A stretch of DNA of 64,000 nt, from positions 1 through 64,000 of the forward strand of contig CAJVYQ010000016.1 of assembly GCA_913009825.1 (NCBI GenBank), written 5' to 3'. The DNA comes from an uncultured Deferribacteres bacterium. GTDB taxonomy: Bacteria > Zhuqueibacterota > JdFR-76 > DREG01. Of this stretch, positions 11,128 through 64,000 are shown piece after piece. Both the position numbers and the translations under genes were made by a program. How positions within the stretch are numbered: the first letter of the stretch is position 1; the number at the start of each line of letters is the position of its first letter. The notes below the pieces were generated by a model that saw only the letters and a list, made by a program, of their open reading frames with translations, was not told the DNA's origin and did no database searches.

Positions 11128-13956
11128 TTGTTTTCCGTCCGTCCTGTTCTTTCTGTAATTTTTTTCATTATTTTTTTCAGCGCCCCGGTTAACTTTCTTT
11201 TCGCCCAGGACTCTTCCTGGACCTTCCACTCCATTCCGCTCAACAATGGCGATATCGAGGATTTTTATTTTCTTGATAAAGATACCGGCTGGGTCGTTGG
11301 CTCTGACTATGACACAACCGCGATCCTCTCCACACAAAACGGCGGGCAGGACTGGATCGATCAGTCTCCGAATATCTCCGGTGGTCTCTCCGGAGTTTAT
11401 TTTGTGGATGCAAACATTGGCTACGCAGTTGGCGAAGACTATAACGGCAGCATTCCGCCGATCATATTAAAAACAACAGATGGCGGCAGCGCCTGGAATC
11501 GGCAAACCGCACCGGGCAACAGCGGCGGCTTGTCGGACGTTTTTTTTACCGGCGCGACAAATGGCATTGCCGTTGGAATTGACACGAACGACAAGACACT
11601 TATTCTGAAAACCGGCGATGGAACCACCTGGACCAGCGTAAATCATATCCAACAGGATGGCAGGTTCAAAAAAGTGTTCTTTGCTGATGAAAACCACGGC
11701 TGGGCAATTGGTTACGATGCAAATCATTTGCTGTCTTATGTTTTCGCCACCAACGACGGCGGGAGTACCTGGACAAAGCAACCGGCGCCGGCGAATAACA
11801 GTCAATTTGAAGACCTGTTTTTTGTCAATCCGGATACCGGCTGGGTGGTTGGACAAGTAAATCCAAACGGTCTGATTCTAAAGACAACCGACGGCGGTGT
11901 AAACTGGAGCTCTGTAAACGCGCCTCCGTCACGGGATATTTCCGCAATAAATTTCATTTCACCTGTTCACGGATTTCTATCCGTCCATGGTAATTCAGCA
12001 GCTTCCTTTGCTACGGTTTTTGAAACGGAAGACGGCGGCGATTCCTGGACCGAGTTATCGGAGCGGGTTAGCGCTGGTCATATTTCAGCGTTAATTGTAA
12101 AGCAGGGGAGCATCCATGTTTTTGCATTTTTTTACCCGATGACGATTGGTGTTATTAATATTGCCACCCAGTTAGTGAGCATTGCAATTACGCCCCCAAA
12201 TCCCACTCTTCAGGTAGGAGAGTCTACCGTATTCACGGCTCAGGGTTACGATGTTTATGGAGACCCCGTCCCAATAAGCGATCCTCAATGGGAAGGTGAC
12301 GGCACTAACGGTGCGATTATACCCGACCCGAACGATCCCAGTAAATACACCTACATGGCGAACTCAACCGGCTCCGGATATGTGATATGTTACGAAGGCC
12401 CGCCGCCTGTAGCGACTATTCACGGTTCGACGGATATAACAATAGTGCCGATCGGTTCAGAGTTGGATCGAATAGATGTAACTCCAAGCTCTGTGAGCAT
12501 ACTGATAGTGGAGCATACACAATTCACCGCCAAGGGTTATGATCAGAATGGCGACGAAATAACTATAACCCCAAATTGGTCTACAGATGGCGGCACTATT
12601 GACCAAACCGGAAACTACCAGGCGACAATGGAGGGGGATTACACCGTAACGGCTTCCGTTACGGGCAGCACGGTCACCGGTACGGCTACGGTTAAAGTAA
12701 TAAAACCGGACGTGAATGACGATTTAGTGGTTGACGGAAAAGATTTGCGCGAAACTTTGGCTGCGATACTCAACCACAGCCAGGATTTAAAATTCGACGT
12801 AAACGGCGACGGGCGGGTTGACGGCCGGGATTTGCAGGAAATCCTGAATGCAATTGCAACAGGTGCCCAACGCGCCGCCGCAGGAAATCCCAGCCCTTCG
12901 CAGCTCGGGAACCGGACAGATTTAGAGGGTCTTATCGGGAACAGTTTTACAGAGAACAATCTACTCTCCATTTCAGCCGTTTCGGGAACGGTGGGAAGCG
13001 ACTCCAACCGGGTAGCAGTAAATCTCACTAACGATTCAACTGTGGCGCTTTTGCAAATGGATGTTTCCTACGACAGCACCGTACTGCGACCCACCGTGGT
13101 TACTCTTGCCGCAAGAACATCCGGCTTTGCCGCGGTTTTCTCCGACACTACCATTGATATGCCGGCCTTATCAGTAATTCAACCCGGCCTGCTGCGTATC
13201 CTGCTCTTCGATTTTAATGAAGACCGTCTCACCCAACAGCTCGTTTCGCCGGGCAGCGGCGCCATGCTGGAAATTCTGTTTGATGTGAACGGACAAGCGC
13301 CATTGGGCGACACTCCCTTAGGCGTTGTTGATCCACTTGCGGTCACTATCGATGCTGATTCGCTGCCCATTTTGTCGCAGGATGGTGTGTTCACGGTTAC
13401 AGCAGGAGCATTAGTTCGAATCGAGGTATCACCCGATTCGGTAAGTCTGCAGCCTGGTCAGATTCAGCAGTTTACTGCCGCGGGAGAGGATACACTTGGC
13501 AATCCCGTATCTTTCCAACCTCTCTGGAGCGCTACCGGCGGTGACATCGACAGCAGTGGACTTTATACTGCCGCTTCAGATACCGGCTATTTTCAGGTTA
13601 TTGCCCGGGATTCGCTGAGTAAAATTAAAGGAGTTGCCAATATTCACATCCAAATTCCGACCGCTGTGACAACAGAACGGAGCAAATTACCAACCAAATT
13701 TGCCCTGAAACAAAATTACCCCAATCCCTTCAACCCGGAGACAACCATTGAATTCAGTGTGGCAAAATCCTGCCGGGTAAAATTAACCGTTTACGATATT
13801 CACGGCAGCGCCGTTTCAATTTTGACTGATGACAACTATTCGCCCGGAAGATACGAGGTTAAATTTAACGCCGCCGATCTGCCTTCCGGTTTGTATCTCT
13901 ATAAAATTAAGATGGGAAATTTCCAGGATGTGAAAAAGATGGTGGTGTTGAAATAA
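11128..13956 (+). CDS. Secreted multidomain protein: Ycf48-like repeats, dockerin, cohesin, T9SS sorting domain
   Basis: A predicted surface or secreted protein of 942 residues. Order: hydrophobic export segment (1-26); Ycf48/BNR-type propeller repeats with recurring LKTTDGG-x-x-W (about 30-350); two bacterial Ig-like domains (about 350-520); a dockerin with paired calcium loops DVNDDLVVDGKD and DVNGDGRVDGRD (about 528-580); a cohesin-like domain (about 611-760); another Ig-like domain (about 762-845); and a C-terminal T9SS type A domain with NYPNPFNPETTI and a final KKMVVLK strand. The frame opens at TTG 11128. An ATG at 11112 in another frame encodes MIIKKVVF, a natural signal-peptide beginning, and the CGTCCGTCC run in between suggests a 4-base slip or sequencing error. 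The function is unknown; attachment or assembly through cohesin-dockerin contacts is an inference. Confidence 0.85.
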   Translation: MFSVRPVLSVIFFIIFFSAPVNFLFAQDSSWTFHSIPLNNGDIEDFYFLDKDTGWVVGSDYDTTAILSTQNGGQDWIDQSPNISGGLSGVYFVDANIGYAVGEDYNGSIPPIILKTTDGGSAWNRQTAPGNSGGLSDVFFTGATNGIAVGIDTNDKTLILKTGDGTTWTSVNHIQQDGRFKKVFFADENHGWAIGYDANHLLSYVFATNDGGSTWTKQPAPANNSQFEDLFFVNPDTGWVVGQVNPNGLILKTTDGGVNWSSVNAPPSRDISAINFISPVHGFLSVHGNSAASFATVFETEDGGDSWTELSERVSAGHISALIVKQGSIHVFAFFYPMTIGVINIATQLVSIAITPPNPTLQVGESTVFTAQGYDVYGDPVPISDPQWEGDGTNGAIIPDPNDPSKYTYMANSTGSGYVICYEGPPPVATIHGSTDITIVPIGSELDRIDVTPSSVSILIVEHTQFTAKGYDQNGDEITITPNWSTDGGTIDQTGNYQATMEGDYTVTASVTGSTVTGTATVKVIKPDVNDDLVVDGKDLRETLAAILNHSQDLKFDVNGDGRVDGRDLQEILNAIATGAQRAAAGNPSPSQLGNRTDLEGLIGNSFTENNLLSISAVSGTVGSDSNRVAVNLTNDSTVALLQMDVSYDSTVLRPTVVTLAARTSGFAAVFSDTTIDMPALSVIQPGLLRILLFDFNEDRLTQQLVSPGSGAMLEILFDVNGQAPLGDTPLGVVDPLAVTIDADSLPILSQDGVFTVTAGALVRIEVSPDSVSLQPGQIQQFTAAGEDTLGNPVSFQPLWSATGGDIDSSGLYTAASDTGYFQVIARDSLSKIKGVANIHIQIPTAVTTERSKLPTKFALKQNYPNPFNPETTIEFSVAKSCRVKLTVYDIHGSAVSILTDDNYSPGRYEVKFNAADLPSGLYLYKIKMGNFQDVKKMVVLK

Positions 13957-53036: not shown

Positions 53037-54485
53037 GTGGTTTTGGCAAAACGTATTGATTTAACTCTTTACATCGTAATTTTTCTTTTTACTCAAAATG
53101 TCTTTGCCCAGGACCCGACGAGTCGGATTGAAAAATTACGGTTAGGGTCCATAACCGGAAGTTTCTCTTTTTCGGGAGCCTCTCTGAGCGGTGAAACATG
53201 GGGCCGTTTTTCCAACGGGAATTATTATCCCTGGTTCAGCATTTTTGAAAATCCGGCCTTTTTCTCCGGAATCCGTTCTCCCCGGATTTTATTTCAATTC
53301 GATCCCGGACAAAAATACAGCATCACAAATCTCGCCCATATTTCCTCTACGGTGAATGAAGAAATTGATAATAATATCCAAAAATACCGCGCCGATGATT
53401 TGCAGGTAGGCTATCCGGCCATGAAAGTTGAATTTGACAGAAAAATTAACTGGCCGGAAGGGATGTTTCTTTTTCCTGTTGAAAAATTTACATTAGGGCT
53501 TTATTTTTTCAGGGCTATGCAGATGTCACTGGATTTTGATGTGATTGGCGTAGAATCTTCCATATCGACAGTGATGAATACCGGTGGCGGCACGAATCGT
53601 GTTGTTCTCAATAATTATATCGATGCTGTTAACAGAATTCATTTTGGTTCTACAAACGCAGGTATTTTCATTACAAGAGTGCTGAGTCATCGATTTATTG
53701 CCAGCCTGATGCTGGAACGTCAATATTATAATTTCAACATAAATAGTGATTTAAATATTCAGGGTTCCATGTATTTCAACGGCAAAGAATATCTGTTCAA
53801 TGATCCCGGAACTCTCTGGCCAACCAATATTTCACAGATTCTTCATGCCGGCTATGCCGGCAGCGCCTGGCGAATTAATTGGGCCGGAATTTATATTTTC
53901 CGCAGGAACCTGATTTTTGACGGTGTGTTGGGATTTGTCTCATCCAGCAATTTATCCGGCTCCCTGACGGGGGAAAGGAATAAAATTCCCGCTTTAAATT
54001 TTGATGCCCTTAAAGGAGGGGGGGGCGTAGATGAAATTTTGGATGCTGCCAAACTAGATCCCAGCAAATTGACTTACACGGAAAATGTCGGTTGGGAGAA
54101 TCATCCTGAGTTACAATACTATGTTCCGAATCAATTGAAGATAGGAATTCTTTACCGGCTGGCAAAATGGTCATTCTACCTCTCTAACAGATTTTATCTG
54201 GGCAGCTACAATTTGGGTTATGGCAAAGATTTTGTGGAACTGAAGCCTAAAATTTTTAGCAAACTTTATATCAGCCGCGGCGGATTTTTTACTAAGTTGG
54301 GCGTTTTTGCTTTCAGTTATTATGCACCGGAATCTCAGGATTTTTCTTCCGATACATCGACGATTCCCAGCCCGTTTCTGACGCTTGGCTATGGCAGGGA
54401 GATGATGAAGCGGTTAGCGCTGATCGGGAATCTGGATATTTTACCAATACCATGGGTTAGTTTTGGTGTTCAATATAAATTTTAA
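53037..54485 (+). CDS. Predicted outer-membrane beta-barrel protein (DUF5723-like)
   Basis: A 482-residue exported protein with a signal peptide (LYIVIFLFTQNVFAQ). The body alternates hydrophobic and polar residues as in beta-barrels, with many aromatic girdle residues, and the last strand WVSFGVQYKF ends in phenylalanine, as expected for outer-membrane insertion. The N-terminal EKLRLGSITGSFSFSGASLS and FENPAFFSGIRSP resemble conserved-hypothetical barrels (DUF5723 type) of FCB bacteria. The start is GTG 53037. The next gene begins 23 bases before this one ends. It may be the outer-membrane anchor or port for the giant secreted proteins downstream; that is inference from synteny. Confidence 0.75.
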   Translation: MVLAKRIDLTLYIVIFLFTQNVFAQDPTSRIEKLRLGSITGSFSFSGASLSGETWGRFSNGNYYPWFSIFENPAFFSGIRSPRILFQFDPGQKYSITNLAHISSTVNEEIDNNIQKYRADDLQVGYPAMKVEFDRKINWPEGMFLFPVEKFTLGLYFFRAMQMSLDFDVIGVESSISTVMNTGGGTNRVVLNNYIDAVNRIHFGSTNAGIFITRVLSHRFIASLMLERQYYNFNINSDLNIQGSMYFNGKEYLFNDPGTLWPTNISQILHAGYAGSAWRINWAGIYIFRRNLIFDGVLGFVSSSNLSGSLTGERNKIPALNFDALKGGGGVDEILDAAKLDPSKLTYTENVGWENHPELQYYVPNQLKIGILYRLAKWSFYLSNRFYLGSYNLGYGKDFVELKPKIFSKLYISRGGFFTKLGVFAFSYYAPESQDFSSDTSTIPSPFLTLGYGREMMKRLALIGNLDILPIPWVSFGVQYKF

Positions 54486-57400
54486 ATATAAAAACATTTT
54501 TCTCTCGTATCCGGCGTTCATTTTTTTCCTGCTGATGGCCGGGATTAAATCCGGTTATACACAAGGATTAACGGTGGTCGAATATCCTTTTTATTTAGCG
54601 GATCAGAATGAAACAGTTACAATTCGTTGGGTAGAAAGTGTAAACGCAACGGTTCGCTACGGCACCCGACAAGGTGTTTATGGCCATCAAATATCTGTTT
54701 CAGGACTTGGTAAGGTGGAATTTGTTCCATCTGCTGAGGGAATGGTGCCGGGGATCTATTATTGCCGCGTATCCAACGGTTTGATTCATTCAAATGAATT
54801 CCCTGTTTATATTGAATCGCCACAGGCGCCGGCTGGTCGTGAACCACAAAACGGCGCCGTCATCAACACCATTTCGCCGAAATTTACCTGGGATGCGGTT
54901 CCCGGCGTCCCGTTTTATCATTTCATTTTGACGGATCAACCGGTGCAAATTGTGAGGGATGAATTTGGCGATCTCCAGATTCAGGGAGCCAATATTATTT
55001 ATCAGGCCATCACCGGTAAAACTGAGCTGCTTTACGGCGACAACGATCCTTCCGGTTTTTTCAACCAGGTAAATGGAATTGTGCCGCCTCTCCTGAACGA
55101 AAAAACCTACAACTGGATCATTTTAAATAATTACGGCAATAATCCCGTTTTTAGCTCCATTGTCCAATCCGGAGTGCAAAGTTTTACTGTGAATGTTCCG
55201 GTGAATATAAATGCCCCGGCGCTGTTGGCACCGGCACATAACGCCATACTTTCCTCACGGGAAATTAAGTTTTCCTGGTCGCCTGTCAGCGGGGCCAATT
55301 CGTATCAGTTTGAAGTGTTTGAAATTATTGAAGAAAGCGGTTCATCTTCTACTTTTCCTGTCTGGCAGGTTGTTACTACCAATACAAAAATTGATCTTTT
55401 GGCGCGGCAGATGTTAAAGAGCAGTTACTATGAATGGCATGTCATTGCCTTGATTGTTTCCGGGGCGGGAAAGGTGAGTGCAAAAAGAAATTTTACCTAC
55501 GATGTGCCCACCGGCGAATTGAATATTCGCACCCGCACTATCTCCGGTAACACAGTGCCGCGGGCAAATGTTAGTATCAAGCCGCTGCAGGGGAGTGGTG
55601 AAAATAACGGATATCTGACCTCCGATTCGGGTATCCTTAATTTAAAGGTTCAACCCGGTGTCTATGAAGTGTCTGCAATGAAAACCGGATTTAAAGATAC
55701 TACCGTCACAGCAGAAGTGGAAGTCAATCATTCCACGGCTGTTCTCCTTGATTTTGAGTTGCTGCCTCGTTTTGTCATCGGAAAGATAGAATCCGATTCG
55801 GGCCTCCCGATTGGTAATTCAACCGTAGTTGCCAAAAATGAGATATCGCGAAAAAAATATAAGACGATCAGCGATCTGTCGGGAAATTTTCATCTGCCTC
55901 TTTCCGCCTCGATCTATTCAATTTACGCTGCTAAAAATGATTATACTTCTGCCGATACGGTAATCGTTGATTTGCGCAATCAGTTTGACATCACGCTGCC
56001 GTCTCCGCTCCGTTTGATCAGAAACAGCGGCGCTCTTTCGGGCAAAGTTACAAGCCAGACCGGTGTACCGATTTTTGGTGTGCGCATTACTGCTCGACAA
56101 AATGCGACAAGAGTGACAACCGTTTCAGATATTAATGGCGCTTTCCAATTTACACTGGGAACCGGAAACTGGCAATTTCTGGCAGAAAAAGCCGGTTATA
56201 GTCAGGGTAATATTCGAACCGTTTCCATTGCAGCAAATCAAACGATCAACCTTGCACAGGATTTGGTTTTAAATTCCCTGGCAGCGAATGTGAGCGGTAT
56301 GATCAACGACGGAAATCGCGGCCTTGAACAAGCAGAAATCCGTGCCACACCCCAGGAAGGCGCACCATTCACCGGCAGGAGCAACGCAAAGGGGAGTTTC
56401 AATATAAGTCTGCCGGCCAATCAATATGATTTCTTTTTTCACAAAGAGGGATTTATCGATCCGCTGCCACAACATTTTGATCTGTCGCCCGGTCAGTCCC
56501 TGAACAATCTGGTCATCAAGCTGAATCCTGCTCCCATCACGGTTTCGGGACATGTAACCAGCGGCGGCACTCCGCTTTCCGGAGTGGTTGTTACCAGTGG
56601 TTCCGCTTTGGATACTTCCAGAATAAATGGTGCTTATCTGCTTTTCCTGCCGAGCGGCAGCCATAAGATCAGCGCAGCAAAACGGGGATATTTTTTGAAG
56701 CAGCCTGTCGAAATATCCCTTTCTTCAGGTGATTTGAATAAAACCAAAGATATTCAATTGCAGCCGCAAGCAGCAATAATCAAAGGCACTGTGAAGACTA
56801 ACGGGACGGTTATCGCCTTCAGTTCTGTTTTTGCGATCATGAATACCGACACCGTACGAACCGGCAGCAATGAAAACGGCGGATTTTTATTCTCTGTTCA
56901 GGCTGGGACCTGGAATGTTGAAGCGCAGAAAGAGGGATTTTCCGGGGATCGGTTCAGCGGCATTACGGTACAGCCCGGCCAGACAATTCAAGGAATTGAT
57001 TTGAACCTTCAACCGGATTTCGGCACTATAACCGGACGTGTCGGGGATGATCATGGAAATTTATTAGCCAATGCTGCGGTGATCTGTTTGGAGCGGGGTA
57101 AAAAAGCGCTTACTAATGATGACGGCGTTTATCAGTTCCTGTTGGGACCGGGTGATGTTACGCTGGAGGCAAACCGGGAAGGGTATGGTTCACAGAATCG
57201 CCCTATCACCATAATCCGTAATCAAACGAAAAATTTAGACTTCAGTTTGAGCACATTCGGTACCATTACCGGTATTATTACATCATCCTCAGGAAATCCG
57301 GTCAATCAGGTATCTATCTTTCTGATTCAGGGAACCGACACGTTGCGGGGAAATTCCGATTATACCGGTGAATATCGTTTGCATCTTGCCGGCGGCAGTT

Positions 57401-58683
57401 ACCGGCTTTTTGCCGATAAATTAGGGTATGCTTCCGCCCAACAACAAATAAGTATCCAAAATGGAGCGAAACTGACCCGGAATTTGCAGCTTCAACCGAA
57501 ACCGGAAGAACTGGCAAAGATTTCCGGTAAAATTTCTTTGGATCAAAAATTGCCTTTATCGTCTGTTGTGATGACTGTTTCGGGGAAGATGAACAAAACA
57601 ACCCAAACAAATTTAGACGGGAATTACAGCATAGAAAAACTGGAATCAGGTCTGTCATATTTGCTGCGACCGGCGAAAAGACGATATTTTTTTATTCCGG
57701 AGCAAATGTTTTATCAACCTCTGGCCGGGAATAAAAACAATCAAAATTTTACAGCTTCCCCTTACGGTGATTTAAGTGGCAATCAGGAAGTCAGCTCTTT
57801 CGACGGATCTTTAATCTTACGAATAAGCGCCCGAAAAAATGTAACGCCGTATTTCAGCAATTTTCCCCGTGATTCTTTAGCCGGCGATGTGAGCGGCAAT
57901 AAAAGGATCAGTTCGTTCGACGCCTCACTGATTTTTCGCTATGTTGTCGGACTGATCAATATATTCCCGGCCGAACAGAAATCCTTCGGTAAAAAAAATA
58001 TGAACATTGAAAAAAATCCGGTTGAAATATTTGTCAACAAGAAATGGCTTGATCCGCAAACACTGCAGGTCTGTTTCCGCGTGTCGGCGCCGATTTCGTT
58101 TTATTCACTGGATGCTGAACTTGAACTGCCTTCGGCTGGCCTGGAGCCGCTTTCTTTTCATGCTGCCGGAAGAATGGCGCGGGCATATCGGGAGTGGAAT
58201 TATGCCCGGGGAAGAATGAATATCGCTGTTGCGGCGACGGAACAAATAACCTGCAACGACTCTCTTTTTTCTATTGTTTTCAGCAGGATGGCTGTTGGCG
58301 CTAGGCTAAATATTTCTTATATTCATATCAAAAAAATAGAACTGGATGAAGGAGCCGTCCCCGTTTCCATTTCAGACGATCCGGTTATCCCGGGTCATTT
58401 TTCTTTATCCCAGAACTATCCGAATCCTTTTAATCAGAGTACTGAAGTTCGTTTATCGCTGCCGGGCAGCAGAGAACAGAAGCACGAACTTGTAATCACT
58501 GTGTATAATTCTCTGGGGCAAAAGGTGAAAAAAGTTGTAAAAAAAGCTGTTTTACCCGGGACTTATACGGTTCGATGGCAGGGAGATTCCGATGCCGGGA
58601 TTTCTCTGGCCAGCGGATTGTATCTGTTGCAAGTCCGCTATGCTGCATTTCACGCGGTAAAAAAAATGATCCTGATTCGATGA
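54463..58683 (+). CDS. Giant secreted protein: carboxypeptidase-regulatory-like repeats, dockerin, cohesin-like domain, T9SS sorting domain
   Basis: A 1406-residue predicted surface protein. Order: signal segment (SYPAFIFFLLMAGIKSGYTQ); Ig/FN3-like modules (about 35-350); about nine tandem CarboxypepD_reg-like beta-sandwiches (about 355-1095), each opening with a GTITGRV- or ALSGKV-type motif; a dockerin-like domain with paired GDLSGNQEVSSFD and GDVSGNKRISSFD loops (about 1101-1175); a cohesin-like domain (about 1195-1305); and a T9SS type A domain with SQNYPNPFN and a closing KKMILIR (about 1315-1406). It starts (TTG 54463 or GTG 54466) inside the barrel gene, so translation is coupled. The dockerin could bind the cohesin-like modules of the next gene product. 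The function is unknown. Confidence 0.85.
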   Translation: MVFNINFKYKNIFLSYPAFIFFLLMAGIKSGYTQGLTVVEYPFYLADQNETVTIRWVESVNATVRYGTRQGVYGHQISVSGLGKVEFVPSAEGMVPGIYYCRVSNGLIHSNEFPVYIESPQAPAGREPQNGAVINTISPKFTWDAVPGVPFYHFILTDQPVQIVRDEFGDLQIQGANIIYQAITGKTELLYGDNDPSGFFNQVNGIVPPLLNEKTYNWIILNNYGNNPVFSSIVQSGVQSFTVNVPVNINAPALLAPAHNAILSSREIKFSWSPVSGANSYQFEVFEIIEESGSSSTFPVWQVVTTNTKIDLLARQMLKSSYYEWHVIALIVSGAGKVSAKRNFTYDVPTGELNIRTRTISGNTVPRANVSIKPLQGSGENNGYLTSDSGILNLKVQPGVYEVSAMKTGFKDTTVTAEVEVNHSTAVLLDFELLPRFVIGKIESDSGLPIGNSTVVAKNEISRKKYKTISDLSGNFHLPLSASIYSIYAAKNDYTSADTVIVDLRNQFDITLPSPLRLIRNSGALSGKVTSQTGVPIFGVRITARQNATRVTTVSDINGAFQFTLGTGNWQFLAEKAGYSQGNIRTVSIAANQTINLAQDLVLNSLAANVSGMINDGNRGLEQAEIRATPQEGAPFTGRSNAKGSFNISLPANQYDFFFHKEGFIDPLPQHFDLSPGQSLNNLVIKLNPAPITVSGHVTSGGTPLSGVVVTSGSALDTSRINGAYLLFLPSGSHKISAAKRGYFLKQPVEISLSSGDLNKTKDIQLQPQAAIIKGTVKTNGTVIAFSSVFAIMNTDTVRTGSNENGGFLFSVQAGTWNVEAQKEGFSGDRFSGITVQPGQTIQGIDLNLQPDFGTITGRVGDDHGNLLANAAVICLERGKKALTNDDGVYQFLLGPGDVTLEANREGYGSQNRPITIIRNQTKNLDFSLSTFGTITGIITSSSGNPVNQVSIFLIQGTDTLRGNSDYTGEYRLHLAGGSYRLFADKLGYASAQQQISIQNGAKLTRNLQLQPKPEELAKISGKISLDQKLPLSSVVMTVSGKMNKTTQTNLDGNYSIEKLESGLSYLLRPAKRRYFFIPEQMFYQPLAGNKNNQNFTASPYGDLSGNQEVSSFDGSLILRISARKNVTPYFSNFPRDSLAGDVSGNKRISSFDASLIFRYVVGLINIFPAEQKSFGKKNMNIEKNPVEIFVNKKWLDPQTLQVCFRVSAPISFYSLDAELELPSAGLEPLSFHAAGRMARAYREWNYARGRMNIAVAATEQITCNDSLFSIVFSRMAVGARLNISYIHIKKIELDEGAVPVSISDDPVIPGHFSLSQNYPNPFNQSTEVRLSLPGSREQKHELVITVYNSLGQKVKKVVKKAVLPGTYTVRWQGDSDAGISLASGLYLLQVRYAAFHAVKKMILIR

Positions 58684-58687
58684 AATT

Positions 58688-61600
58688 ATGCTAAAATTTT
58701 TGAAAATTATTCTTACTGTTTTTGGACTTCTCTGGCAAACCTGCGTTTTATTTGCTCAGAACGTTACAGTTACTATTCCGGACGTCGGCGCTCCGGCAGG
58801 TAAAAATGTGAACGTGGATATTTCAGTTTCCGATTTGAGCGGTTTACAAGTATTTTCCATGGATTTTAAACTGCTGTATAATCGGAATCAACTGGAAAAT
58901 ATTGGCGTAACCGGTTCGGGATCGATCAGTTCTTCGTGGGGCTCACCAACCGTTAATAATGTACCCGGTCAGGTTAGTGTTGCTTTTGCCGGCGATCACC
59001 CTTTATCCGGAAGCGGACGCTTACTTCGCCTGCAATTTCATGTGTCTGAAAAGGCAGCAACGGGAAGTTCTTCTCAACTGGTATTTTTAAGTTTCAAATT
59101 CAATGAAGAACAACCACAGACCTCTCTTAAAAACGGCACGTTTACGGTTACAGCGGACCAGGAGCCACCGGTTATCACCAGTGGGCCGACAGTTACGCAA
59201 AAAAATTATCATGATGTTAAAATATTTATTCGGACAGATGAACCGTCGACAGTGGAACTATTTTATGGAGAGTCAACCAATTACGGTGAAAAATATTCCG
59301 ATAAAAATCTTGATACAAAACATACGTTGCAATTAGCCAATCTTATAGAAACAACTACTTATCACTATAAAATTCAGCTCACGGATTCTCTGGCAAATGG
59401 CCCGCGTGTTTCAACCGATTATTCTTTTCAAACAAAAGCGGTGTCAATCAATCTACCGGATTTTACGGCAGATCCCGGTACCGGGTTTGAAGTTCCCGTC
59501 ACTGTTTCCGATCTGTCTCCTTTAAATGTTACGAAAAGCGATCTGTCTTTTCAATTTGATAACAATCAGTTACAAATTTCCGGTATTAAGACAACAGGTA
59601 CGATTTTGAAAAATTGGCCGGCCCTGCAGGTTACTATTTCCAACGGGGAATTTACACTTCATGCCGTCGGCAGCGCTCCACTGGGCGCCGGGGACAAACT
59701 GTTTTTTATTAAAGGAACGATCCCGCAATCGGCCATACTGGATAATCAATCGGCTCTAATATGGACGACTGCGAGTTTCAATGATCGCGCGATCCGGCTG
59801 GTTTCCGGAAACGGTTCGGTGACCGTAAAAGACCGAATGCCTCCTTTGATTATTTCCGGGCCGGATTTAACCGAAATCAGCTATCAATCGGTGAAAATTC
59901 TCTGGCAAACAAATGAGCCGGCAACAAGCCTGATCGACTACGGGGAATCGGCCGCCTATTCTTTCCAAAAGCATATTGACCGGTTCGTCACAAACCATGA
60001 CTTACAACTTACCGGTCTCGATCCGGCAACCCGGTATCATTTTAGAATCGGCGGGAAAGATGCCAGTAACAACGGACCTACCTGGACCGGAGATGCAACG
60101 TTTACAACCGGATCGGCGGATGTTCTTGTTGAAGTTGCGAATAAATCCACCACTGCGAACAGCATATTCCGGCTACCGGTTAAAACGACAGACATCACCG
60201 GATATGCGATTAAGAAGTGGGAAGCGCTCATTGGTTACGATCCTGAGCTCCTGATCTATGTGGGGGCGGATCAAAACGGAAGCTTAAGCCAAAGTTGGAA
60301 TCCCATTGAAAGTGTGGAGAATGCGGGATTTATTTCCCTTTCGGCAACCGGTTCTTCGGCGCTGTCGGGAATGGGGAATGTAATATTATTGGGATTTCAG
60401 GCAAAATCTGTGCAGGGAAACAAGCAAACTCAGATCGATCTGCTTTCATTTCGATACGATGACGGATGGCCGGCAGCGGCAAAAAAAAGTGGCATCGTAA
60501 GTATAAGTGGAACTCAAGATCAGACGGCGCCCCGTATTATTTGGGGACCGTATGTGGATCAAATCACCGGTCGATCTGCTCGTCTGAACTGGCGCACAGA
60601 TGAAACGGCCAGGGCTGGTGTTGAATATGGCACATCATATTCCTATGGCAATCAATTTCAGGAAAGCGAATTTGATTCGATTCATCATGTTACACTCACC
60701 GGATTGCAGACTAATACCGAATATCACTATCGTTTACAAAATCAGGATATTGCCGGAAATATTTCTCCCTATTCTTCAGATAGTTTATTTACTACACTAA
60801 CAGGGAACAGCGTTCCGGTTTCTGTTCCTGATTTATCAGTTATTCCGGGTGCAACAGTGGAGGTTCCACTACAAGTTGGAAATATCACCGGCCAAAATAT
60901 TTTTTCTTTTGATATTACCATTCTGTATGATCAAAACAAACTTACCGCTCAGTCGGTCGGCAGTAACGGCACTATTTCTTCATCATGGAATCCTGTCTAT
61001 TCGCTGTTTCCGGGACAAGTGGTAATTGCTTCCGGGGGAATCCAGGCATTACAGGGGAGCGGGAAGCTGGTGAAAATCAGATTCAAAGTGAATAATGATA
61101 TCCGGATTGGCGAACAAACTTTTATCCAATTTGCCAGTTTTGTGTTTAATGATGGATCGCCTCCGGTGACGTACAAAAATGGTGTATTGAAAATTAAAGA
61201 TCGGCAACCGCCGGTTTTAAGTGACGGTCCTTTTGCTTTTAATGTAAAAACTCATTCTGCCGTTATCGCCTGGCGTACAGATGAAATATCGGATTCCCGC
61301 ATTTTTTATGGCATGAATGCTCCAAATGAGCTGATAACGATCGATGAATTTTTGTATAAATCACATTCCATTTTGCTGGATGGATTGGTCGCAGATACCG
61401 GCTATCGGTATCAAATTGCATCCCGCGATTCTTCGGGAAATGAATGGAGATCGGGACAAACGTATTCGTTTACTACCAAACCGGAGCATCCGGTTCAATT
61501 TCAGGTCGGTAACGGAGCAAGCGATGTGAATCAACCGGTCTCCATTCCTTTATCAATTTCCGGTAATGGTTCACGTCCCTTATTTGACATCAAGTTTGTT

Positions 61601-64000
61601 GTGATGTTTAATGATCAACTTATTCAATATCAAAGCTATTCAGTCAGCTCGCCTGGATTATCCGATTGGACGGCCGCGGTTAATACTGTAAGTGAAGGAA
61701 GGTTGAGTTTTCATCTTTACGGTGATCAACCCTTTACCCGGGAAGGTGAATTTCTGAAAATACGTTTCCGGTCGCAGGCGGGCGATTATGGTTCGAAAAG
61801 CGATATCGGGATGCAGGAATTATTCGTCAACAACCGGAACACCAGTCTTTCCGTGCAAAACGGAAGTTTTCTTCTTATCGATCGAACTCCTCCTCAATTT
61901 TTAACGAATCCGGTTGCCAGCCAAATTCATGAAAATTCGGTCAATATTTCCTGGCAGGCAGATGAACCGGTGCGCAGCCTTTTAGCTTACGGTTCAGCTC
62001 TCGAGGATACCATCAGAATAACTTCTGCATCTGCTGCTGTTGAATATAATCTGACTAATTTGCAACCGGGAACTGCCTATAAATTCCGTATTGGTATCAC
62101 GGATACTATCGGTAACGGACCCATTTGGAGTGTTACGGAACAGTTTACTACATCGTTAGGTAATGAAGTCGATATTGTATTGCCGGATACATCATTTGCG
62201 ATAGGGGATACTGTATTAATACCTGTAATGATCGGCGAACCCGGTACTGCAAATATTTTAAAATACCGGTTTCTGCTCGTACATCCGGCAGACCAATTGA
62301 AATTTTTAACTACGGTCCACACCGCAAGTTTAACGGAAAGTTGGTCCAAACCGGAAATTGCACAAGTGGCGGATACTGTTTCTATCTCTCAATCATTTTC
62401 GCAAAAAGTAACCCATTCCGGTGTGCTGCTGTATCTGAAATTTTTAATCAGGAAAAATGTCGCACACAACCGGCAGCTCTTCCTGCGTTTGAAAGAATTC
62501 GTCTTCAACAATGGCGTTCCTCCTGCGGCTGTTTCAAACGGTTCAATTTTATGCAAAGATGAAACACCGCCGCTGTTCCTTTCATCACCGGAACAGGTTT
62601 TGGCGCGCTTGAAATCCGTTCTATTAAGAATCCGTACCGATGAATTTAGCCGGTTGAAGATTCATTACGGACAGACAGCCGGTTCGACAACCAATCTGCT
62701 GAACATCGACGATCCGGATACAACCCATGTTGTTGAAATAAAGGAACTGCTGCCGAATCAAAACTATTCCTACCAGGTGGCAGCTTTTGATTCTCTCAAT
62801 AACGGGCCTGCCCTGAGCGAAATTTTATCTTTTCACACATCTGAGGCTGCCATCAAATTGTCTTTACCGGATACATCGATCACGGCTAACACGGAATTTT
62901 TACTGCCGGTCTCCATTTCCGATGTTACCGATTTCGACATCACCCGGTATGAACTTCAATTCCATTACAACAGCCGGTTTTTACAGCCGTTGAGCGTGGT
63001 TGTTGCGCATAGTCTATCTTCAACATGGGTAAACAGCAGTTTTTCTAATGAGAATGCAACGATTCATTTCAGTAATTCAGGTGATAAACCGCTTACCGGC
63101 CATGGAACTCTGTTCGTTTTACATTTTCAAGTTACGCCGAGTGCCGTGCCGGGGGACAGCGCCCGGGTTTTTATTGAACAGGCTTCTTTTCAAAATAATC
63201 TGTTTCCGGTAACAACCGACACTAATTGGATATTCTTCAAGCAGCCGGTTGTTGAAAATCTTGAACTGTTCACTCCGGATACCACAGCTTATCTGGATTC
63301 TGATATCAACACTTATGTTAAAATTTCCGACATATCTGATTTTAATGTTTTTTCCTACTCGTTAATTGTAAAAATTGACCGTCAGGTTTTGGCTTTTCAG
63401 GCAATTTCCACTAATAATACAATGACTGCGTCGTGGCAAACGCCAAACCTGTTTTTTATCGGGGACAGTTTATTTGTTAAACATTCGGGTGAACCGGCGT
63501 TACACGGTTCAGGGAAGTTATTTACTCTAAATTTTTCGCCGCAGCAAAATATCACAAACGGAATAAAATCAAATGTGGAACTTATTGACTTTCAATTGAA
63601 TAATGCCCCTGTTCCGGCAAATATTAAAAATGGATCCATCACATTCATAGACCGGGTATCAAAAATAGCCGGTTTTATCAAAGATGTTCGAAGCCGGGAA
63701 ATAATCCCCGATGCTAAGATATTCGCATTGGATTCTCTGCAGCAGGTAATTTCCAGCGCTACTTCAAATTCAGACGGATATTTTGAACTGCTTCATTTAA
63801 AGGAATATTCCCATTACGATATTTTTGCCACAAAATCAGACTATACGCCATCGGACACCTTGCGCCATATTTCTCCGGGGCTTTCAATCAATACCTTGTT
63901 TCTTATGAAACAGGACGGCGTTATTTCCGGAAAATTGACGGACATGGGTGGAAATCCCATCGATGGCGCAATCATTGTTCTGAATAATTCTCACGGATTC
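58688..64000 (+). CDS. Giant multi-cohesin-like / FN3 scaffold protein (3' end beyond window)
   Basis: The frame is open from ATG 58688 to the window end, 1771 codons without a stop. It starts four bases after the upstream stop. A signal peptide (MLKFLKIILTVFGLLWQTCV) is followed by eight cohesin-like modules at about 24-155, 251-381, 477-608, 706-838, 934-1065, 1158-1291, 1387-1517 and 1518-1654. Each opens with a VxVPD-type strand and has L-x-Y-(D/N)-x-(N)-x-L and SSSW-NP elements. Six FN3 modules, with RTDEP-x-x-x-x-x-x-YG and LTGL-x-x-x-T-x-Y motifs, lie between the first seven. CarboxypepD_reg-like modules begin at about 1656 and continue past the edge. It resembles a scaffoldin in layout. 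Dockerin binding is not shown; a T9SS domain, if any, lies outside. Confidence 0.88.
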   Translation, partial: MLKFLKIILTVFGLLWQTCVLFAQNVTVTIPDVGAPAGKNVNVDISVSDLSGLQVFSMDFKLLYNRNQLENIGVTGSGSISSSWGSPTVNNVPGQVSVAFAGDHPLSGSGRLLRLQFHVSEKAATGSSSQLVFLSFKFNEEQPQTSLKNGTFTVTADQEPPVITSGPTVTQKNYHDVKIFIRTDEPSTVELFYGESTNYGEKYSDKNLDTKHTLQLANLIETTTYHYKIQLTDSLANGPRVSTDYSFQTKAVSINLPDFTADPGTGFEVPVTVSDLSPLNVTKSDLSFQFDNNQLQISGIKTTGTILKNWPALQVTISNGEFTLHAVGSAPLGAGDKLFFIKGTIPQSAILDNQSALIWTTASFNDRAIRLVSGNGSVTVKDRMPPLIISGPDLTEISYQSVKILWQTNEPATSLIDYGESAAYSFQKHIDRFVTNHDLQLTGLDPATRYHFRIGGKDASNNGPTWTGDATFTTGSADVLVEVANKSTTANSIFRLPVKTTDITGYAIKKWEALIGYDPELLIYVGADQNGSLSQSWNPIESVENAGFISLSATGSSALSGMGNVILLGFQAKSVQGNKQTQIDLLSFRYDDGWPAAAKKSGIVSISGTQDQTAPRIIWGPYVDQITGRSARLNWRTDETARAGVEYGTSYSYGNQFQESEFDSIHHVTLTGLQTNTEYHYRLQNQDIAGNISPYSSDSLFTTLTGNSVPVSVPDLSVIPGATVEVPLQVGNITGQNIFSFDITILYDQNKLTAQSVGSNGTISSSWNPVYSLFPGQVVIASGGIQALQGSGKLVKIRFKVNNDIRIGEQTFIQFASFVFNDGSPPVTYKNGVLKIKDRQPPVLSDGPFAFNVKTHSAVIAWRTDEISDSRIFYGMNAPNELITIDEFLYKSHSILLDGLVADTGYRYQIASRDSSGNEWRSGQTYSFTTKPEHPVQFQVGNGASDVNQPVSIPLSISGNGSRPLFDIKFVVMFNDQLIQYQSYSVSSPGLSDWTAAVNTVSEGRLSFHLYGDQPFTREGEFLKIRFRSQAGDYGSKSDIGMQELFVNNRNTSLSVQNGSFLLIDRTPPQFLTNPVASQIHENSVNISWQADEPVRSLLAYGSALEDTIRITSASAAVEYNLTNLQPGTAYKFRIGITDTIGNGPIWSVTEQFTTSLGNEVDIVLPDTSFAIGDTVLIPVMIGEPGTANILKYRFLLVHPADQLKFLTTVHTASLTESWSKPEIAQVADTVSISQSFSQKVTHSGVLLYLKFLIRKNVAHNRQLFLRLKEFVFNNGVPPAAVSNGSILCKDETPPLFLSSPEQVLARLKSVLLRIRTDEFSRLKIHYGQTAGSTTNLLNIDDPDTTHVVEIKELLPNQNYSYQVAAFDSLNNGPALSEILSFHTSEAAIKLSLPDTSITANTEFLLPVSISDVTDFDITRYELQFHYNSRFLQPLSVVVAHSLSSTWVNSSFSNENATIHFSNSGDKPLTGHGTLFVLHFQVTPSAVPGDSARVFIEQASFQNNLFPVTTDTNWIFFKQPVVENLELFTPDTTAYLDSDINTYVKISDISDFNVFSYSLIVKIDRQVLAFQAISTNNTMTASWQTPNLFFIGDSLFVKHSGEPALHGSGKLFTLNFSPQQNITNGIKSNVELIDFQLNNAPVPANIKNGSITFIDRVSKIAGFIKDVRSREIIPDAKIFALDSLQQVISSATSNSDGYFELLHLKEYSHYDIFATKSDYTPSDTLRHISPGLSINTLFLMKQDGVISGKLTDMGGNPIDGAIIVLNNSHGF

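Follow-up and report, generated by a model that had tools for sequence, protein, structure and literature searches.

Pairing of cohesins with dockerins is known mainly as a means of collecting enzymes. The locus described here shares with the clostridial cellulosome (CipA/ScaA-type scaffoldin) a non-catalytic protein with many cohesins and a dockerin with two calcium-loop repeats; the nearest solved dockerin is that of Acetivibrio cellulolyticus ScaB, which likewise joins scaffoldins. Unlike the cellulosome, it is predicted from sequence to depend on Gram-negative T9SS export, the candidate partner is a single giant encoded next door in which no catalytic domain is recognised, the cohesins are strongly diverged while their number is nearly fixed across genera, and no large set of dockerin enzymes accompanies them. 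Cohesins and dockerins also occur outside cellulosomes in Archaeoglobus fulgidus and Clostridium perfringens, where the proteins have few cohesins, and we know of no split-giant relationship among them. SprB/SprF and the PorV-dependent proteins of Bacteroidota resemble our locus in placing a giant repeat protein beside outer-membrane barrels, with a barrel that in our locus is probably of the PorV family. However, the first barrel of our locus is FadL-like without a PorP/SprF match, the tails are of type A/FlgD_ig, and to our knowledge SprB has no cohesin-dockerin pair.

A T9SS-tailed cohesin scaffold has been proposed earlier for Ca. Stygibacter (Cloacimonadota), with a large tandem-cohesin protein, a T9SS-type C-terminal domain and dockerin proteins in the genome (PMC8542988). 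That system has CBM domains, dockerin enzymes and peptidases (PMC8542988), whereas our locus has FN3 spacers and a CnaB/ZU5-like stem, and its operon also includes two barrels and a dedicated giant bearing the dockerin. Non-cellulosomal cohesins are known as well; our search of the open-access literature found no split-giant operon of this kind and no dockerins from KSB1, the uncultured phylum from which new dockerin and cohesin candidates are gained here. Here the pairing would belong to a conserved operon for surface proteins and involve one dedicated partner. If the joint proposed below is true, the snap-lock of cellulose-degrading complexes serves construction here rather than the holding of enzymes. 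Relatives whose version of this backbone is a single covalent chain offer a natural comparison. Two questions are opened to testing, namely how a secreted giant might have a peptide bond replaced by a non-covalent lock, and which functions arrays of many cohesins have where there is no cellulosome.

Organization of the locus and its proteins

The stretch of DNA analysed here (the window) comprises bases 1-64000 of an 83-kb contig from a draft genome of 5.1 Mb that is 96% complete. A sequence-only reading had described three tightly packed genes at its end as a coupled candidate scaffold system. The packing is as described, with an overlap of 23 bases between g1 and g2 (with a TTG start for g2) and a gap of 4 bases between g2 and g3, all on the plus strand (Table 1). 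The gene g3, which that reading proposed to follow past position 64000, was retrieved in full; its stop lies at contig position 65407 and the protein is 2239 aa long. The three genes are scaffold-like as claimed, but the set has four genes, the last of which encodes a probable PorV-family barrel (g4). In scans for promoters and terminators, matches were roughly as frequent in shuffled sequence as in the real one. Directly after g4 lies a gene (L011:13844-15256) whose 470-aa product is probably an outer-membrane protein and matches no Pfam family; it precedes a ComF-like gene and the genes for GAPDH, PGK and TPI.

Table 1. Positions of the genes and modules of the locus (window numbering, except for g4)
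Feature	Position	Strand	Remarks
g1	53037..54485	+	predicted outer-membrane beta-barrel, probably FadL superfamily (FadL/BamG-like)
g2	54463..58683	+	1406-aa predicted exported protein: g2N - CnaB x9 - dockerin - cohesin - T9SS tail
g2N domain	54562..55509	+	conserved region at the N-terminus; 7 orthologues average 52% identity
nine CnaB/CarboxypepD_reg repeats	55528..57741	+	E 2.4e-80; ninth abuts dockerin
g2 dockerin	57742..57981	+	two F-hand repeats
g2 cohesin-like module	58015..58389	+	poorly conserved: 22% identity, 3/125 invariant
g2 T9SS type A-like sorting domain	58402..58680	+	TIGR04183; Por_Secre_tail/FlgD_ig
g3, window part	58688..64000	+	signal peptide, eight cohesins, six FN3-like spacers, first CnaB repeats
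g3 cohesin 1	58757..59155	+	conserved, Ser-x-Asp (aa 57, 59)
g3 FN3-like spacer 1	59156..59434	+	first of six
g3 cohesin 2	59435..59830	+	
g3 cohesin 3	60113..60508	+	
g3 cohesin 4	60806..61198	+	conserved, Ser-x-Asp (aa 740, 742)
g3 cohesin 5	61487..61879	+	
g3 cohesin 6	62162..62557	+	
g3 cohesin 7	62846..63238	+	
g3 cohesin 8	63254..63649	+	directly behind cohesin 7
g4	contig about 65404 or 65413 to 66363, from g3 stop		probable PorV-family barrel, just past window

The suggestion that g1 is an outer-membrane barrel agrees with its AF2 model, a beta-barrel with a mean pLDDT of 88.5. The best PDB matches in Foldseek were BamG (9hjm_F, E 2.5e-6) and EcFadL (E 3e-6), with TM values of about 0.4-0.5. 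While g1 itself has no Pfam match, 7 of its 23 homologues match Toluene_X, and homologues are present in 26 of 59 relatives. Membership of the PorP/SprF family was set aside because its profile (PF11751) matches none of the 23 homologues. For g4, the PorV/PorQ profile NF033709 gives 68.9 bits (E 5.5e-19) against a cut-off of 90; the family profile is matched by 13 of 14 g4 homologues, and g4 matches PorV in the PDB (6h3i, E 4e-6). SprA, the T9SS translocon component covered by our search, is present in the same genome with 876 bits over the frame. Both g2 and g3 combine a signal peptide (judged by eye) with a C-terminal sorting domain, as T9SS cargo does. The tail of g2 reaches 27.1 bits against TIGR04183 (T9SS sorting; cut-off 23), and that of g3 matches FlgD_ig only (27.7 bits, cut-off 27).

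The dockerin of g2 alone scores 16.3 bits against Pfam PF00404, below the cut-off of 22.9, and 32.9 bits when its neighbours in the frame are included. Orthologous dockerins exceed the cut-off (24.4 and 24.6 bits), and a profile built from four g2 dockerins retrieves dockerins of known structure with an E of 4e-12. The presumed calcium-loop ligand positions 1, 3, 5, 9 and 12 are occupied by D, S, N, S and D in both repeats, which also have identical Ser-Phe at 10/11 and Arg at 18. The AF2 model of the g2 tail gives the dockerin a pLDDT of only 30-37, hence no confident prediction of it. The cohesin, which lies 11 aa from the dockerin, is not detected in this protein by the Pfam profile; the fold predicted for it agrees with cohesins of solved structure (2xdh of A. 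fulgidus, TMt 0.61; 3ul4, 0.60). The orthologous dockerins, this fold match and the sorting-domain score bear out the dockerin, cohesin and T9SS end that had been read from g2.

The full g3 consists of eight cohesins with six FN3-like spacers, three CnaB repeats, a ZU5-like domain and a FlgD_ig-type tail, where ZU5-like is our own label for a conserved region of 230 aa without a Pfam match. Pfam Cohesin (PF00963) is matched with an E of 8e-62 by the window part and of 9.5e-59 (198 bits) by the full-length protein, and with 284.7 bits over 8 stretches by an orthologue; the spacers match Pur_ac_phosph_N/fn3. Cutting into modules gave exactly 8 cohesins, in line with the cohesin array proposed earlier; six of them are followed by an FN3-like spacer, and cohesins 7 and 8 adjoin.

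Conservation in the phylum and fused relatives

The gene coupling recurs in relatives. The order g1-g2-g3-g4 is intact in four genomes (G005, G006, G011 and G073), the same genes are present in G019 and G075, and pieces are found in G042, G050 and G061, all of these latter loci being broken at contig ends. The ten g3 proteins that are complete or nearly so are 2213-2376 aa long; local models count 8 cohesins with 6 FN3 modules in nine of them and 7 cohesins in the one from G011. The eight-module layout is common to several families of the phylum. The best-segment identity of the other g3 proteins to this one is 27-47%. A scan of named genomes found three loci only, and KSB1 bacteria are among the nearest relatives that bear a name.

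A g3-type C-terminal domain is present in 13 of the 82 phylum genomes and is accompanied by g2 in 10 of these 13, while no case of g2 without g3 was found among the 82. Two genomes of one family (G069 and G070, 100 and 93% complete) keep an octa-cohesin g3 and g4 but no g2, and g3 must therefore act without g2 there. In G062, a g3-type C-terminus is likewise found without g2, but this genome is fragmentary and its sister G042 carries g2. The loci L093 and L094 encode an octa-cohesin g3 and g4 without g1 or g2, and the contact Asp (see below) is absent from their modules 1 and 4.

In 27 proteins from 20 genomes, g2N and the g3 C-terminal domain lie in a single ORF. These fused giants were paired by contig and frame length, and the layout, verified in four of them and seen in a fifth protein, is g2N, 11-22 CnaB repeats, the ZU5-like domain and the tail. 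Some add an N-terminal metallophosphatase domain, and the fused giants adjoin homologues of g1 and g4. The split pair has 9+3=12 CnaB repeats in total; two fused giants, the one on C28 and one of 1663 aa, have 11. The paralogue on contig C28 of the same genome (L107:514-7098) comprises an N-terminal calcineurin-like phosphoesterase domain, g2N, 11 CnaB repeats, the ZU5-like domain and the tail, and is followed by g4-like and g1-like barrels. By their domain composition, g2 and g3 correspond to two halves of one protein of the relatives. Fusion of their domains in one ORF elsewhere argues that g2 and g3 work together (the 'Rosetta stone' argument), and it makes the neighbouring g2 the leading candidate for what the g3 cohesins bind.

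The proposed dockerin-cohesin joint

We consider it fairly probable that the surface giant consists of two T9SS-exported chains which are rejoined non-covalently by the g2 dockerin in a g3 cohesin. The single-chain giant of the relatives (g2N, CnaB, ZU5-like and sorting domains) would then be present here as two polypeptides. The distal arm would be g2, with g2N, nine CnaB repeats and the dockerin at its end, and the stem would be g3, with its eight cohesins and FN3 spacers, three CnaB repeats, ZU5-like domain and sorting domain. One or two of the g3 cohesins, in all likelihood 1 and 4, would receive the dockerin, and the remaining ones would mostly be spacers or might bind other things. The PorV-like g4 would pass the sorting tails to the T9SS sortase, and the FadL-like g1 might serve as an outer-membrane partner or anchor. 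While the domains, the conserved operon, the fused relatives, the conservation pattern and SprA are observed, we infer the g2-g3 binding, the choice of modules 1 and 4, the roles of g1 and g4 and an end use as surface fibre or matrix; for the latter, the appendage or adhesive matrix of the sequence-only reading is a guess.

Conservation within g2 points to a binding partner outside it. The dockerin has a mean pairwise identity of 71% with 42 of 80 positions invariant, and with about 72% it ranks first among the 259 80-aa windows of g2 (median 39%). It is the only dockerin of g2 type in this genome. The neighbouring cohesin, in turn, is the least conserved domain of g2. It could be argued that the dockerin pairs inside g2, onto the adjacent cohesin or in a head-to-tail chain of g2 molecules, g3 being a separate adhesin. 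The short distance between dockerin and cohesin, the occurrence of the same tandem at the end of other KSB1 proteins and the retention of an (S/A)-x-D motif by the g2 cohesin in 5 of 7 orthologues are in line with such pairing. However, the motif is lost in G005 and G006 while the dockerin is nearly fixed, and since the dockerin is the most conserved part while that cohesin drifts, the neighbour is not a likely partner; we therefore regard pairing inside g2 as unlikely. As the g2 tail (CnaB, dockerin, cohesin and sorting domain) resembles a cassette on other proteins of the phylum, the dockerin may also be inherited baggage of this cassette, though its conservation would argue otherwise.

On the side of g3, the cohesins are not interchangeable. 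Their pairwise identity within the protein is 11-35%. Across genomes, the best cohesin matches between species lie at the same position in 164 of 240 cases, where 30 are expected by chance, and the modules thus have positional identity. Modules 1 and 4 are the most conserved of them (mean 44 and 40%, other modules 26-35%). In the CipA cohesin, Asn37 and Asp39 touch the Ser/Thr motif of the dockerin (PMC5772552). In profile alignments, Ser-x-Asp in cohesins 1 and 4 falls on the corresponding residues of solved cohesins (Asn-x-Asp in 4ums, Ser-x-Asp in 3ul4), so that its equivalence to CipA Asn37/Asp39 is one of alignment rather than structure. All 7 genomes with a proven g2 dockerin show Ser-x-Asp in modules 1 and 4, and 4 of these 7 show it in module 5 too; the remaining modules hardly have it, and it is common in cohesins at large. 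It is absent from modules 1 and 4 of the g2-less G069 and G070, a loss that counts as one evolutionary case, and G062 retains it in module 1 only.

Eight equal docking sites, which we also considered, are unlikely, given the divergence of the g3 cohesins and a contact motif that is universal in modules 1 and 4 only, and were set aside. The binding modules for the g2 dockerin are, as far as such residues can tell, probably 1 and 4 only. The symmetry of the dockerin repeats (Ser-Phe at 10/11, Arg at 18) appears to be of the kind linked with dual-mode binding, which has been connected with internal dockerin symmetry (PMC8063739). A further proposal, which we put forward tentatively and at somewhat less than even weight, is that the joint is an exchangeable one within a two-chain giant T9SS surface fibre, where cohesins 1 and 4 would be the sockets that take the g2 arm and the remaining six would be retired sockets kept as spacers. 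Counting against the joint, eight cohesins exceed the needs of a two-part connection, and G061, whose g3 is divided over contigs, has at least nine.

The low identity between modules, the absence of Ser-x-Asp from 6 of the 8 modules in this genome and the array kept without g2 in G069/G070 would all suit g3 cohesins that do not bind dockerins and merely space out a long adhesin as plain structural beta-sandwiches. But plain spacers would leave the higher conservation of modules 1 and 4 unaccounted for, as well as their retention of the contact residues wherever the dockerin is present, and the strongly conserved dockerin requires a partner, which makes this explanation quite improbable.

Dockerin proteins elsewhere and the cellulosome question

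With eight cohesins in a single non-catalytic, predicted exported protein, g3 resembles a scaffoldin that could gather dockerin-bearing enzymes from the whole genome, and a similar case has been proposed for Ca. Stygibacter (PMC8542988). Candidate clients are encoded in a cluster on contig C50 of the same genome, which includes a GDSL esterase whose dockerin exceeds the Pfam cut-off. It also encodes RGL11, GH88 and CBM96 proteins, a few of them ending in dockerin-like or cohesin modules. However, the C50 dockerins have lost their first calcium loop, their match to the g2 profile spans mainly a single repeat, and the g3 cohesins are far more diverged than clostridial scaffoldin repeats, which are usually near-identical. 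Moreover, G005 and G011 keep an octa-cohesin g3 with one dockerin protein each besides g2. In G005 there are two dockerin proteins genome-wide, g2 among them, and in G011 g2 and one weak match, with every cohesin match lying within g3.

Our genome has 6 dockerin matches at E<=0.05, and the dockerin of the GH88 protein falls below the cut-off. A set of dockerin-bearing glycoside hydrolases was found neither in this genome nor in G005 and G011, and the cellulosome, being left with a single dockerin protein besides g2 in some genomes, was set aside as quite improbable. The caution of the sequence-only reading that the assembly may not be a cellulosome is upheld by these counts. Its remark that the enzymes of the window are without dockerins holds only in part, as an ORF at 11128-13956 has a dockerin, a cohesin and a T9SS tail, and enzymes of C50 carry dockerin-like modules. 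It is possible that g3 has a minor role as a dock for the C50 tails. Under loose criteria, which ask for one protein with two cohesins and one dockerin-bearing GH (PMC11557425), this genome would be a borderline cellulosome case.

The ORF at 11128-13956 encodes a 942-aa Ycf48/BNR-like repeat protein that also has a Big_2 domain; its dockerin is not of g2 type. C50 (L013:2039-20000 and L014:1-8261) encodes large predicted exported proteins, including the RGL11 lyase, GH88 and GDSL esterase proteins as well as CBM96, FG-GAP/laminin-G and parallel-repeat proteins. Several of them terminate in CnaB, a half-dockerin, a cohesin and a T9SS tail, and the cluster is likely a pectin/rhamnogalacturonan locus with its own type of tail. 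A 2612-aa protein of C50 (L013:15927 to L014:3765) begins with a lone cohesin that shares 35% identity with g3 cohesin 1 and continues with numerous repeats of InlB-B/PEGA type. Over their whole genomes, G019 and G075 have 28 cohesin and 18 dockerin matches each, so that the cohesin-dockerin network of some KSB1 bacteria may be richer than the one in this genome.
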